Positions 18,781-42,967 of a DNA stretch of 44,063 bases are shown in pieces. Under the pieces are notes generated by a model. That model worked only from the letters and a program-made list of their open reading frames with translations. It made no database searches and was not told the origin of the DNA. Within the stretch, counting starts at the first letter, position 1, and every line of letters starts with the position of its first letter. The DNA is from Nocardioidaceae bacterium. GTDB lineage: Bacteria; Actinomycetota; Actinomycetes; Propionibacteriales; Nocardioidaceae. Location: positions 1 through 44,063 of the forward strand of contig JAICXL010000012.1 of the NCBI GenBank assembly GCA_025980475.1. The letters run 5' to 3'. A program made the position numbers and the translations under genes.

Positions 18781-19481
18781 AGCTCGATCCATGGCGCATT
18801 GCAGAGGACCCGGCCGCCGACGAGGCTGCCGCGGCCCTCCTCCGCACGGCAACGCCCTCCTGCCATCCGGGCCCACTACCCGGTGAGGAAGAGGCGCTCG
18901 CCGAGTTCCGCGCTACGGGTCATGACCTCAGGAGGCCCCTCGTGCAGACAACTCGTCGCCGTGCCCGCATCCTCATCGCCACCGCCGCAACCGCCGGGAT
19001 GCTGACCTGCACAGGGGCGGCAGCCGCGGCGACCGGAGACCTGCCAGACGCGGCACAGCAAACCGCGCGGGACATGCTGGCAAAGGTCGGAGTCACCGTG
19101 CCCGGTCCCAGCCTGCACTCACCGGGAGATGCCGACACGCGTGGCACCGCCCACCCCGCAAACGCCACCCCTCCCGGCACCTCTGCCGAGGACACCTCTC
19201 CCGAGAGCACGCCTTCGACCCAGGCCTCTCCTTCCGGCAAGGGCGCGGAAGTCTCCAACGTCGCGAGGACGACCACGGCGACCGGTGTCGCGAAGGGGGC
19301 GCAGATCTCAACGCTCGCTTCAGACGGCAAGAGCCAGGCCGGTCAGCACGGCACGCCCTCGACGCCGGGTTCGCAGGGCACTGCACACAAGCCCTCCACG
19401 CCCGGATCCCAAGGCACCGCGCACAAGCCATCCGGTGCTGGTGCCACCGGAGGCGGCACGTCGGACTCGCACCGGCCCTGA
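18777..19481 (+). CDS. Single-pass membrane protein, putative partner of the ECF sigma factor
   Basis: A 234-aa protein I do not recognise as a named family. An N-terminal cytoplasmic part of about 60 residues is followed by a basic RRRAR stop and one TM segment (about 64-86). A long Ser/Thr/Pro/Gly-rich exterior tail ends with two exact copies of STPGSQGTAHKP near residues 195-218. Its start overlaps the sigma stop, the usual arrangement for sigma/anti-sigma pairs. The HxxxCxxC zinc motif of classical anti-sigma factors is absent. An atypical anti-sigma or co-regulator role is inferred from position and topology only. Confidence 0.68.
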   Translation: MKLDPWRIAEDPAADEAAAALLRTATPSCHPGPLPGEEEALAEFRATGHDLRRPLVQTTRRRARILIATAATAGMLTCTGAAAAATGDLPDAAQQTARDMLAKVGVTVPGPSLHSPGDADTRGTAHPANATPPGTSAEDTSPESTPSTQASPSGKGAEVSNVARTTTATGVAKGAQISTLASDGKSQAGQHGTPSTPGSQGTAHKPSTPGSQGTAHKPSGAGATGGGTSDSHRP

Positions 19482-40221: not shown

Positions 40222-40836
40222 TCAGTCCTCCCGCTTCAGGACGCCGTGCAGCAGGACGTCCGCGATCTGGTCAGGGGTGAGCACAGCGCCCATGCCGAGC
40301 TCGGGGCGGCTGGAGCCGATGACCAGGCTGCGCAGGGCGAGCGCCGCCTGCTCCGGTGCCAGCGCCAGCTCCGCGCGGTGCGGTTCGAAGAGCGTGGTGA
40401 GCCGCGCGTGCAGCGCCTCCTGTGCCTCGAGGACGAAGCGAGGCGGCCCGGGCTGCTTGTGGTGCTCCGCGTCTGCGTGGAGGGCGGCCATCAGGTGCGG
40501 GCGTACGGCGACCATCACCGCCATCGTCAGCCGCATCCGATCCTGCACCTGGCCCACGGCGGCGATCACCTTGTCACGCAGCGCGACGCGGTCGTGCATC
40601 TGGGCGTCGAAGAGCTGCTGGCCGCCCGCCGGGTTGATCGCCTCGCGGGCGGCGGCCAGCATCAGGCTCTTCTTGTCCTCGAAGACCCGGAAGATCGTGC
40701 CCTCGGCGATCCCGGCGGCCTCGGCGATCTCGCGGGTGGACAGCTCGCTGCCGCGCTCGGCGAGCAGCGGCACGACCGCCTCGACGATCGCCTTGCGGCG
40801 GGCGTCGGGCGACATCGAGGTGGCGCGGGGGCTCAT
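40222..40836 (-). CDS. TetR-family transcriptional regulator
   Basis: A 204-aa protein. The N-terminal helix-turn-helix reads ELSTREIAEAAGIAEGTIFRVFEDKKSLMLAAAREA, followed by a ligand-binding helical domain. It is the first gene of the exporter operon and likely its repressor. A perfect 18-bp palindrome lies 16 bp upstream of its ATG. A -10-like TACAGT (40850-40845) lies only 8 bases before the ATG and there is no Shine-Dalgarno, so the mRNA may be leaderless, as is common in actinobacteria. The inducer is probably an exporter substrate. Confidence 0.92.
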   Translation of the reverse strand: MSPRATSMSPDARRKAIVEAVVPLLAERGSELSTREIAEAAGIAEGTIFRVFEDKKSLMLAAAREAINPAGGQQLFDAQMHDRVALRDKVIAAVGQVQDRMRLTMAVMVAVRPHLMAALHADAEHHKQPGPPRFVLEAQEALHARLTTLFEPHRAELALAPEQAALALRSLVIGSSRPELGMGAVLTPDQIADVLLHGVLKRED

Positions 40837-40844
40837 GACCCGAC

Positions 40845-40870
40845 ACTGTAACTGAGTGAGCGCTCACTCA
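40845..40870 (-). promoter_or_regulatory. TetR operator (18-bp perfect palindrome) with overlapping promoter
   Basis: TGAGTGAGCGCTCACTCA at 40853-40870 is a perfect palindrome, of the type bound by TetR dimers. It ends two bases before a -10-like TACAGT (40850-40845, minus strand), so a bound repressor would block polymerase. The predicted start of transcription falls at or next to the TetR ATG at 40836. Confidence 0.75.
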
Positions 40871-40907
40871 CAAGGGATTTACCGGGCCCACGGCCCCGCG
40901 AGCCGGT

Positions 40908-40960
40908 CTCACTACGGTCCGCCGGTCCCTCGGGTCGTCCGAGCGTCCAACCGTAGTGAG
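40908..40960. repeat. 53-bp palindromic repeat, left copy
   Basis: The outer arms CTCACTACGGT (40908-40918) and ACCGTAGTGAG (40950-40960) are a perfect 11-bp inverted repeat. Inside, CTCGG-GTCGT-CCGAG forms a second stem. It begins 8 bp after the stop of the nuclease gene. It shares 45 of 53 positions with the right copy at 42105. Confidence 0.85.
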
Positions 40961-40968
40961 TCTCCACG

Positions 40969-42039
40969 TCAGAGCCGCCTGATCTCCTCGATGTCCGGCG
41001 GCGGCCGGTTCTCCCAGAACTCGTGCAGCTCCCGCATCGCCTCCCGCTCCTGCAGCCGCCCTTCGGCACTGAAGCCACAGGTCCGGGCGATCCAGCGCCG
41101 GTCGACCTCCGGCTCGAACAGGGCCCGCTGACGGGTGGCCAGCAGCCGATCGACGACCAGGCCGGAGTCAGGCAGATCGGTTCCGGTGACCCGGGCGACC
41201 TCCAGCCCCACCCGGCGGAAGGCATCATCCTTGCCGATGTCGCGGGTATGCCGACGCCTGCCCAGGTGGTCGGCACCGTCGAACTCGGCCACCATCCCGG
41301 CCACCGGGTCGAGCAGGTCGGCGACCCCGAGCAGGTGGCCGTTGCGGTCATGGATCGGGCAGTTGGCCCACGGCTCGGGTAGGCCCGCGTCGAGCACCCA
41401 GACGAGGCGGAGCCTGGTCTCGTTCGGCGAACGGCTGTGCTCGTCCGCGAGCTCGAGTGCAGCCCGCGCGATCCTGATGCGGCGAAAGCCAGGGTGGCTG
41501 TCGACGTACGCCTGCATTCGTTCGGGCGAGCTCTTCGCGGCGGCGGCGACCATGTCGACCACCACGGTCGCCTCACGCACGTCGGGCGCGAGGCGCATCG
41601 CGTCGAAGGCGGCCCGCTCGATCACCGCACAGGGGATGCCGTAGCGCCCGGTGCGGTCCGCCCCAGCGAGCGCTTCGTGCAGCCGAACGATCCTGGTGTC
41701 ACCGCGGATCCGGCCCGAGACCCCGACGGCCAGTGGCACCGGGAGCTGCGTCGCACCGTCGGTGGCGAGCCCGTCGAGCAGTCCCACCCGATGCAACCGG
41801 CAGCCGGCCCAGCCGGTCACCACCCCGCCGGTCGGCAGTCTCATGGATTGCTCGAGGATCCGCTGCTCGGGCACGTCGGTCGGCGTCGCGGAACGAACGT
41901 GGAGGCCCCAGCTGGTCCTTCGCCACAGGGGGCCGGCTGCCTGGGCCTTGGTGGGCCCGGTGACGCCTGCAGGGTCGACACGCACGGGCGAGACCAAACC
42001 ACGGGGCTCGGGACACTCGGGATCCCACTTGTGGGGCAT
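40969..42039 (-). CDS. DUF559-type endonuclease-domain protein
   Basis: A 356-aa protein of a type common in Nocardioides-like genomes. The C-terminal part (about 203-290) looks like the Vsr/PDDEXK-related DUF559 fold: SPNETRLRL (E207), GVADLLDP (D241), VAEFDGADH (E252, D254, H258), then a basic helix and VARVTGTDL. The N-terminal 200 residues are of unknown function; families of this layout are sometimes annotated beside AbiEi-like antitoxin domains, which I cannot confirm here. The ATG at 42039 has no clear ribosome site. The gene is alone between two 53-bp hairpin repeats, so it may be part of a mobile cassette or defence-like unit. Confidence 0.75.
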   Translation of the reverse strand: MPHKWDPECPEPRGLVSPVRVDPAGVTGPTKAQAAGPLWRRTSWGLHVRSATPTDVPEQRILEQSMRLPTGGVVTGWAGCRLHRVGLLDGLATDGATQLPVPLAVGVSGRIRGDTRIVRLHEALAGADRTGRYGIPCAVIERAAFDAMRLAPDVREATVVVDMVAAAAKSSPERMQAYVDSHPGFRRIRIARAALELADEHSRSPNETRLRLVWVLDAGLPEPWANCPIHDRNGHLLGVADLLDPVAGMVAEFDGADHLGRRRHTRDIGKDDAFRRVGLEVARVTGTDLPDSGLVVDRLLATRQRALFEPEVDRRWIARTCGFSAEGRLQEREAMRELHEFWENRPPPDIEEIRRL

Positions 42040-42104
42040 GGGACGAGGATCCCCGACGCGCCCGGAGGGCTGCAGCCGTCGTCCACAGGCCCGCCCCTCG
42101 GAGG

Positions 42105-42157
42105 CTCACTACGGTTCGCCGGTCCCTCGGATCCTCTGGCCGTCCAGCTGTAGTGAG
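42105..42157. repeat. 53-bp palindromic repeat, right copy
   Basis: Same length and orientation as the left copy, with eight differences. Its outer arms read CTCACTACGGT and GCTGTAGTGAG (42147-42157). Two of the changes turn Watson-Crick pairs into G-U pairs, so the 11-bp stem survives as RNA. It lies 65 bp upstream of the nuclease ATG and 8 bp after the pdxH stop. Confidence 0.85.
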
Positions 42158-42165
42158 CCAGCCGG

Positions 42166-42882
42166 TCAGGGAGCCAGGCGCTCGATGACCCAGCCGGACG
42201 GGACCCGGCGGTAGGCCAGCCGGTCGTGCATCCGGCCGTGGCGGCCCTGCCAGAACTCCAGGGCGTCCGGCTCGACGACGTAGCCACCCCAGTACGGCGG
42301 GCACGGGACCGCCTCGCCGCGGAAGCGCGCAGTGGCCTCGTCGTACGCCTGCTGGAGCTCCCCGCGCGAGGCCACCACGCGCGACTGCGCCGACGCCCAG
42401 GCCCCGAGCTGGGACTCGCGCGGCCGGCTGGCGAAGTAGGCCTCGGCGTCCGCGTGGGGCAGCCGGGCGGCGACGCCCTCGACCCGGACCTGGCGCTGAA
42501 GCTCGTACCACGGGAAGAGCAACGCGCACCGTGGGTCCCCGGCCAGCTCGCGGCCCTTGCGGGACTCGTGGTTGGTGTAGAAGCAGAAGCCACGGTCGGT
42601 GACCTTCTTCAGCAGCACCGACCGGCTCGACGGCCGTCGGTCCGCGGCGACCGTGGCGACCACCATCGCGTTGGGCTCGTGGATGCCGGCTGCCATCGCC
42701 TGGCGCAGCCAGCGGTCGAACATGTCGAGAGGGTCCGCCTCGAGGTCGGCCTCGTCGAGCCCGGCGAGCCGGTAGTCCTCGCGCAGTGCGGTCAGGTCGA
42801 TGCGCCGCTGGTCCCCCGGCCGGTCCCGGTGCTCCTCGCCGGGCAGGTCCGGGGGCTGGTCCGGGGGCTGGTCGGCCTGCAT
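42166..42882 (-). CDS. pdxH: Pyridoxamine 5'-phosphate oxidase
   Basis: About 238 aa from the ATG at 42882. After a short Pro/Asp-rich N-terminus (QPPD repeated, from a duplicated 12-bp DNA unit) the PdxH fold follows: LREDYRLAGLDEADLEADPLDMFDRWL, NAMVVATV, PSSRSVLLKKV, GFCFYTNHESRKGREL, RQVRVEGVAARL, and the C-terminal PYWGGYVVEPDALEFWQGRHGRMHDRL with the FMN/PLP-binding residues. It oxidises PNP/PMP to PLP with FMN and oxygen. The gene is divergent from the citrate synthase across an 85-bp promoter gap. Confidence 0.94.
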   Translation of the reverse strand: MQADQPPDQPPDLPGEEHRDRPGDQRRIDLTALREDYRLAGLDEADLEADPLDMFDRWLRQAMAAGIHEPNAMVVATVAADRRPSSRSVLLKKVTDRGFCFYTNHESRKGRELAGDPRCALLFPWYELQRQVRVEGVAARLPHADAEAYFASRPRESQLGAWASAQSRVVASRGELQQAYDEATARFRGEAVPCPPYWGGYVVEPDALEFWQGRHGRMHDRLAYRRVPSGWVIERLAP

Positions 42883-42967
42883 GCGCTGAACATAGCCGGT
42901 GCTGGCACAATGCGAGGCTGACCGGATCCGCGGGCCCACGAGGCCCCGACCGACGAAGGAGTCGCCG

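Follow-up and report, generated by a model that had tools for sequence, protein, structure and literature searches.

The locus analysed here consists of a single gene for a predicted nuclease held between two palindromes, in the interval between pdxH and a gene for a tetR-family regulator (Table 1). It lies in a window of 44,063 nucleotides from a Nocardioidaceae bacterium, by which we mean the whole stretch of DNA that was analysed. The start of pdxH was picked by us inside a longer open reading frame.

Table 1. Genes and palindromes at the nuclease locus, in window coordinates.
Feature	Position	Strand	Basis and remarks
Nuclease gene, 356 aa	40969..42039	-	Open reading frame; family matches of homologues; invariant residues; AlphaFold2; Foldseek
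Upstream palindrome (U), 53 bp	42105..42157	.	65 bp before start codon, 8 bp past pdxH stop
Downstream palindrome (D), 53 bp	40908..40960	.	8 bp past stop of nuclease gene; direct repeat of U
pdxH, pyridoxamine 5'-phosphate oxidase	42166..42885	-	Pfam PNPOx_N and PNP_phzG_C; precedes the nuclease gene in the direction of transcription; context only
tetR-family regulator gene	40222..40836	-	Pfam TetR_N; context only

The original prediction had described two self-complementary 53-bp repeats set tightly around one gene, and this description is borne out: the copies align without gaps in direct orientation, with 45/53 positions identical, and both can pair. A 26-base core of the repeat, allowing up to 3 mismatches, was found at two places in the window versus none in 100 shuffles. 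At the foot of the stem stand 11 perfect pairs in the left copy and 12 in the right, two of the latter being G-T on the + strand, and folding z-scores for the + and - strands come to -4.1/-4.3 in the left copy, which was folded with a shift of one base at 40909-40961, and to -3.2/-2.0 in the right copy. Such pairs had been taken as a sign of selection for an RNA or single-strand fold, a suggestion that we abandon as regards RNA: G-U arises only on the strand opposite the gene's transcript, and the transcript has A-C mismatches there. Across the family, upstream stems (n=68) hold 42 G-U and 47 A-C mismatches and downstream stems (n=65) hold 29 and 42; there is no G-U excess, and these counts speak against the palindromes acting as RNA. 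The proposed target duplication fell away as well. Its word, AGCCGGTC, occurs 21 times in the window on both strands, and there is no family-wide signal, a shared word of at least 6 bp lying outside the repeats in 6/81 elements versus 3.7 expected. The elements thus do not show the short direct repeats outside the ends that mark insertion sequences with target duplication.

No third copy of the 26-base core, at up to 3 mismatches, is present in the window or in its 92.8%-complete genome, and no variants of the stem were found elsewhere in that genome. Across the genus (24 genomes), the stem CTCACTAC/GTAGTGAG, with 25-50 nt between its arms, turned up nowhere but at the window locus, the other 23 genomes yielding none. 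The search for the hairpin that had been proposed as a check showed the window's own 53-bp repeat in 2 copies, with none dispersed through its genome at the sensitivity used, and relatives of the gene framed by cognate palindromes of their own. With its two palindromes only, the window member is a plain example of its family and not the best one.

A second proposed check, for empty sites between pdxH and tetR, did find them: in 11 of the 23 genomes that represent the rest of the genus, pdxH stands directly beside a relative of tetR (32-70% identity with that of the window) and the nuclease gene is missing. One of the 23 carries ~1 kb of other sequence between the two genes, and in 11 there is no tetR relative in the ~1.5 kb read at pdxH; within the stretch read, the nuclease gene was found at pdxH in 0/23. 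The simplest reading of these comparisons would be that the gene was gained in the window's lineage, the relatives being too distant to give the exact joint. In one genome, G009, a hairpin of another stem class lies 7 bp past the pdxH stop.

For the window protein, Pfam, NCBIfam and PADLOC all came up empty, and DUF559 (PF04480) was not matched at E 1. Other members of the family match models for DUF559, for the MTES_1575 REase (C-terminal part) and for AbiEi (N-terminal half). DUF559 is matched at E 0.01 in 7/45 homologues, and one relative, 52% identical to the window protein (L010), lies above the DUF559 cut-off, so the DUF559 label that the original prediction gave to the gene holds by kinship with matching relatives and not for the window protein directly. 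The PADLOC AbiEi models match up to 37/45 members (for the most frequent model) and Pfam AbiEi_4 matches 10/45, with the AbiEi match spanning residues 17-178 in one member (L074) and 21-176 in another (L079). An AlphaFold2 model of the window protein is confident (pLDDT 96.2). When it was compared with known structures by Foldseek, nothing fell below E 0.001; the best matches were mitoribosomal proteins (E 9e-3), which we take to be RAP-domain proteins, and PvuRts1I (E 0.10) was among the further matches. I-Bth0305I (3r3p_B; E 0.53, probability 0.89, TM-score by target 0.65) and Vsr (1cw0_A; E 3.5, probability 0.35, TM-score by target 0.44) also appeared, both weak by E-value. A sequence search of solved structures gave none below E 0.2.

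Five residues, E207, N226, D241, H258 and D267, are invariant in 73/73 closer relatives, and in a wider alignment (n=45) D241 is kept in 45, E207 in 44, D267 in 42, H258 in 34 and N226 in 32. We read E207, D241, H258 and D267 as an E-D-H-D set from the motif's name and not from a structural superposition. The family thus shows E-D-H-D residues in a Vsr-like fold, with fold matches of modest score, and is, as predicted from these data, composed of an AbiEi-like N-terminal half and a Vsr/EDxHD-type nuclease domain.

The family is widespread. Scanning GTDB contigs with the window protein alone retrieved no relatives; a scan with an alignment retrieved 82 loci, of which 80 were kept, in Nocardioides, Marmoricola and bins labelled only Nocardioidaceae, Propionibacteriales or Actinomycetota. 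Homologues occur in 128/148 genomes sampled from the class. On mobile carriers, no match was found in plasmids (two queries), phages (one query) or viral contigs, a result valid for these queries and their sensitivity. Within the genus, we worked with 50 loci, 30 from the search and 20 fetched later; 13 of the weaker matches on the list of that search were added separately. Set A1 holds 45 of these 50 loci and set A2 holds 30; neither includes L071 or the four whose genes contain inner stops.

Framing by matched repeats proved to be a property of the family at large. By blastn in a fixed search space and at E 1e-4, we compared the 350 bp before each gene with the 250 bp after it. Matched repeats enclose 37/50 homologous genes in the 24 genomes of the genus, and for 36 of these genes the pair lies at E <1e-7. 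Further GTDB loci gave 49/61, 45 of them below 1e-7; these 61 are what remains of the 80 after removal of 3 with short flanks and 16 duplicates. At class level, where 2/29 loci were dropped for short flanks, 24/27 are framed (20 below 1e-7), or 23/26 (19 below 1e-7) without one duplicate, L199 being the same element as L141. Loci of the same class from outside the window's taxonomic family are framed in 17/19 cases and strongly (<1e-7) in 13/19, these 13 representing 8 families by label, and the weaker homologues are framed in 13/13 cases (11 below 1e-7). By comparison, control open reading frames (at least 200 aa, from 400 kb of one genus genome) are framed in 5/132 cases and none below 1e-7, with the proviso that they start at the first ATG/GTG and family genes at a homology-placed start. 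DUF222 genes, which these genomes also carry in multiple copies and which are tied to HNH nucleases, gave 2/28, one of them below 1e-7. No matched pair was found at 13/50 genus homologues and 12/61 GTDB homologues.

Among the matches listed, most repeats are long-stemmed palindromes, 50 to 100 bp in length; in some subfamilies the inverted ends consist of a short, perfect hairpin and a longer one, and others have iteron-like tandem units. Both inverted and direct pairs are present, direct ones often, and the palindromes often match both ways. Downstream copies begin near the stop codon, and stems are specific to the gene and differ between species. The palindrome scan behind the G-U and A-C counts given above was loose, its score of 16 of 22 being reached by 17/81 control stretches inside genes versus 68/81 upstream stretches, so we judged framing by the repeat test and not by that scan.

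Many of these genes sit at inherited places. Both neighbours are shared with at least one other locus at 64/114 loci, and 26 loci in 26 genomes form one same-place cluster; the window's locus belongs to no cluster. In the 26-genome cluster, the two palindromes around one gene score 17.7 of 22 when their arms are compared, versus 8.2 for the same palindrome between genomes and a maximum of 11.3 in 10,000 permutations, and in 16/26 members the partner arm beats every arm of the other 25. Arm similarity tracks protein similarity (Spearman 0.52, 0/5000 permutations). In 283/316 same-place pairs, taken over all clusters, conservation of the nuclease falls below that of either neighbour, with a mean identity of 52% versus 72% and 78%; the neighbour values are raised somewhat, neighbours having been counted only when similar at E 1e-15. 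At this one locus in 26 genomes, the flanking palindromes thus coevolve with the gene while it stays in place. The accessible text of PMC2817692 describes the same traits for RAYTs, namely joint change of the two palindromes beside a gene that does not move, and fast evolution of the gene.

Inherited loci would also suit a different reading, in which the protein is a DNA-binding regulator or chromosome organiser with dispersed palindromic operators, its nuclease fold no longer in use. AbiEi binds inverted repeats, and AbiEi-like matches occur in many members (the 37/45 given above); the absence of H258 from 11/45 of the wider set would fit a loss of catalysis in part of the family. Set against this, the invariance of E207, D241, H258 and D267 in all 73 closer relatives is unexpected if catalysis has been lost, and a regulator would need no copy of the palindrome past its own stop codon. 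We regard a regulator of this kind as unlikely.

In several genomes, the palindromes are not confined to the frames. The stem class GGTAGTCC...GGACTACC occurs at 44 places in 9/24 genomes, versus 4 for the reversed pattern, and the four richest genomes have 11, 9, 9 and 8 places. When 43 of the 44 places were read, 2 adjoin a nuclease gene, 4 lie inside a called open reading frame and the others are intergenic, 21 between tandem, 15 between convergent and 3 between divergent genes, as far as rough gene calls allow; the 44th, judged by position, adjoins the gene of locus L066. Total length in this class is nearly constant at 62-64 (44-74 was allowed). Within a stem family, the outer arm is much alike and the middle is variable. 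The variable middles were considered as possible guide sequences, but these positions carry little information; they also differ widely between dispersed copies, so recent copying is not visible there.

The dispersed hairpins are partly traceable to genes of the same genome. Among 41 hairpins of the GGTAGTCC class away from a nuclease gene, 22 find their best match, out of 114 loci, in frames of their own genome: 9/9 in G010, 6/10 in G008, 3/8 in G003, 3/8 in G004, 1/1 in G017 and 0/5 in G002, G007, G013 and G014 together. The others fit another species better or have no fit, and for one stem family of G004 the loci that were read include no partner gene. A second class, GGTTTC...GAAACC, occurs at 51 places in 7/24 genomes, with 0 for its control. 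Some GGTTTC places are themselves frames, four of ten in G010 for example. A scan of 400 kb of G010 that was blind to stem sequence returned 19 strong palindromes; nine match, at E <1e-3, the frames around nuclease genes of G010 itself, one of the nine being itself such a frame and three being fitted equally well or better by a frame of another genome (L022), and the other ten have no match to such frames. Two stem classes thus have further copies dispersed in the genome of their cognate gene, though only in part of the genus.

The placement of these hairpins bears on a more ordinary explanation, that the palindromes are bidirectional terminators insulating the gene and that each dispersed copy simply terminates some other gene. 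By the same rough calls, 36/43 hairpins lie in tandem or convergent spaces, as terminators should, with 3 in divergent spaces and 4 in a called open reading frame, and the start of downstream copies near the stop codon agrees with this. However, 25/70 upstream palindromes with a called neighbour adjoin a divergent gene, where there is nothing to terminate, and downstream stems show no excess of G-U over A-C (29 to 42). Termination also leaves unexplained why the stems are common to both ends yet different between species, and why this nuclease family is framed and control genes rarely are. We consider this explanation quite improbable.

Homing is a third possibility to weigh. Insertion of a homing endonuclease gene disrupts its target, and the occupied allele resists cutting. 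A free-standing gene of this type, with the palindrome as its cleavage target, would be copied into empty alleles by recombination, which would account for the gene-free sites at pdxH-tetR, and the nuclease domain resembles that of the EDxHD homing endonuclease I-Bth0305I, reported in the accessible text of PMC3943268 to act as a dimer on a target of nearly 60 bp. At occupied sites, however, a palindrome stands on either side of the gene, so that, if the palindrome is the target, it is not disrupted and would be cut again. Homing also leaves the dispersed solitary copies unexplained and sits badly with the absence of the window's stem from the other 23 genomes; we judge it very improbable.

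We return to the likeness with REP sequences and their RAYT transposases that the original prediction had seen, with a PDDEXK-like protein in the place of the transposase. That likeness is supported by the framing of relatives, by the dispersal of stems in some genomes, by the gene-free sites at pdxH-tetR and by the finding of no RAYT-type transposase: Y1_Tnp (PF01797) is matched in 0/24 genomes of the genus versus 5/14 control genomes, such as E. coli, which makes a hidden RAYT unlikely. We lean towards the view that the window gene is a member of an actinobacterial nuclease family, each gene typically framed by its own palindrome pair, which is RAYT/REPIN-like and employs an unrelated nuclease. 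In the mechanism that we envision, a protein dimer would recognise the inverted arms of ~20 bp each (53-63 bp in total in single-hairpin classes), a length that the I-Bth0305I target would fit, and the nuclease would nick or cut at the palindrome. Palindromes, and rarely the framed gene, would thereby be copied to new places with the frame kept, and such copying could be the cause of the dispersal. The nuclease would then do for these palindromes what RAYTs are thought to do for REPs and REPINs. Weighing against this view are the missing family-wide target duplication, the restriction of the window's own stem to its two framing copies, the hairpins that fit another species better or nothing (with the three G010 palindromes fitted as well or better by L022), the homologues that lack a matched pair, the divergent middles, the 64/114 loci at inherited places, the weak fold matches and the loss of H258 in part of the wider alignment.

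A broader proposal, to which we give a little under an even chance, is that this is a second, independently evolved system of REP type that extends across the class, in which a Vsr/EDxHD nuclease whose other half is AbiEi-like and binds DNA recognises and copies species-specific REPIN-like palindromes without a HUH transposase, and the sequences of enzyme and palindrome chase each other. To our knowledge, the HUH/Y1 transposase is the one type of enzyme with which REP populations have so far been associated. The accessible text of PMC8266576 describes the spread of REPs as poorly understood. In our literature search, with subscription journals mostly outside it, nothing among the matches listed connected REP-like hairpins to nucleases of the DUF559, Vsr or EDxHD kind. 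The pairing of enzyme and palindrome thus appears to be new, and its mechanism is one that we infer. If true, such a system, running in parallel on an enzyme of different origin, would separate the features that belong to this way of life from those that belong to the enzyme, and it would give a testable function to a large nuclease family of unknown role, with matches in 128/148 class genomes. Dozens of natural pairs of enzyme and site that differ in specificity could allow a recognition code to be read, and the family could supply long-site nucleases.

Several known systems share parts of this arrangement. With AbiEi and AbiEi-DUF559 proteins, it has in common the AbiEi models that match the N-terminal half of members; it differs in its nuclease domain and palindrome frame, neither of which, as far as we know, is part of AbiE. 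EDxHD and Vsr proteins are similar in the fold of the C-terminal domain and in the invariant E-D-H-D set, nuclease activity being predicted here, and they differ from the present family in that the latter has a palindrome frame, keeps its palindromes at the occupied site and carries, in relatives, an AbiEi-like N-terminal half. CGTC-tagged REPs, too, are palindromes scattered through genomes, again with no dedicated transposase found, and by the description in the accessible text of PMC3733652, on which our comparison rests, they are predominantly alpha-proteobacterial, whereas the present palindromes are actinobacterial. RAYT/REP systems come closest. As far as the accessible texts of PMC2817692, PMC3116915 and PMC3733652 describe them, they share the single gene framed by two cognate palindromes with gene-specific stems, the dispersed intergenic copies that lie mostly downstream of genes, the joint change of palindromes at a fixed gene place with fast evolution of the gene, and hairpins of near-constant length with a variable middle. 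Copy numbers differ, with up to at least 11 per genome in our first class and up to at least 14 in our second, both by strict patterns, compared with 37 to 427 perfect copies of Stenotrophomonas REPs in the accessible text of PMC2817692. In REP/RAYT systems the two flanking REPs are inverted and have a GTAG-type head; pairs of the nuclease family are often direct, with inverted ones among them. What lies between them is a Vsr/EDxHD-type nuclease with an AbiEi-like half instead of a HUH/Y1 transposase. Since the HUH enzyme is the defining feature of REP/RAYT, we do not file the present system there, although it would appear to work in a like manner.

Hairpins are also found in relatives within the pdxH–tetR gap, the interval where the window carries its nuclease gene. 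At one such locus (L045, genome G009), a GGTTTCCCCGGG-type hairpin lies 7 bp past the pdxH stop codon, the position at which the window has its upstream palindrome. In another genome (L057, G008), two long adjacent hairpins that share a GAGGTGGCTGCC motif occupy much of the gap of about 250 bp.

At the other end of the interval, the window carries a palindrome, TGAGTGAGCGCTCACTCA, 5′ of the tetR gene, and a near-identical motif lies 5′ of the tetR relative in other genomes whose pdxH–tetR gaps were inspected. This palindrome is probably the operator of the TetR-family regulator.

Coordinates of palindromes, hairpins and a second nuclease gene
Feature	Locus	Position
Palindrome TGAGTGAGCGCTCACTCA	Window	40853-40870
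Distant second nuclease-family gene	L062 (G000:C80:1286-6050)	1986-2939
First 67-bp hairpin	L097 (G010)	18831-18898
Second 67-bp hairpin	L097 (G010)	18987-19054

The genome of the window also encodes a distant second member of the nuclease family, which has inverted flanking repeats of its own. The two hairpins of L097 in genome G010 are nearly identical, are spaced 156 bp apart (start to start) and are akin to the repeats framing a nuclease gene of the same genome and those framing its relative, L022. In genome G004, a dispersed stem family, GTGACGAACGGACC, occurs at four loci (L193, L263, L264 and L265) with a single base change in one copy; no matching nuclease frame was found among the loci read from that genome.

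Nuclease-family members occupy one common place in several genomes (L014, L018, L034 and L157, with L035 on one side), and at L014 the upstream hairpin is retained and the downstream hairpin appears to have decayed. In one subfamily (L290, L292, L294, L081 and L029), the flanks consist of iteron-like tandem units rather than single hairpins.
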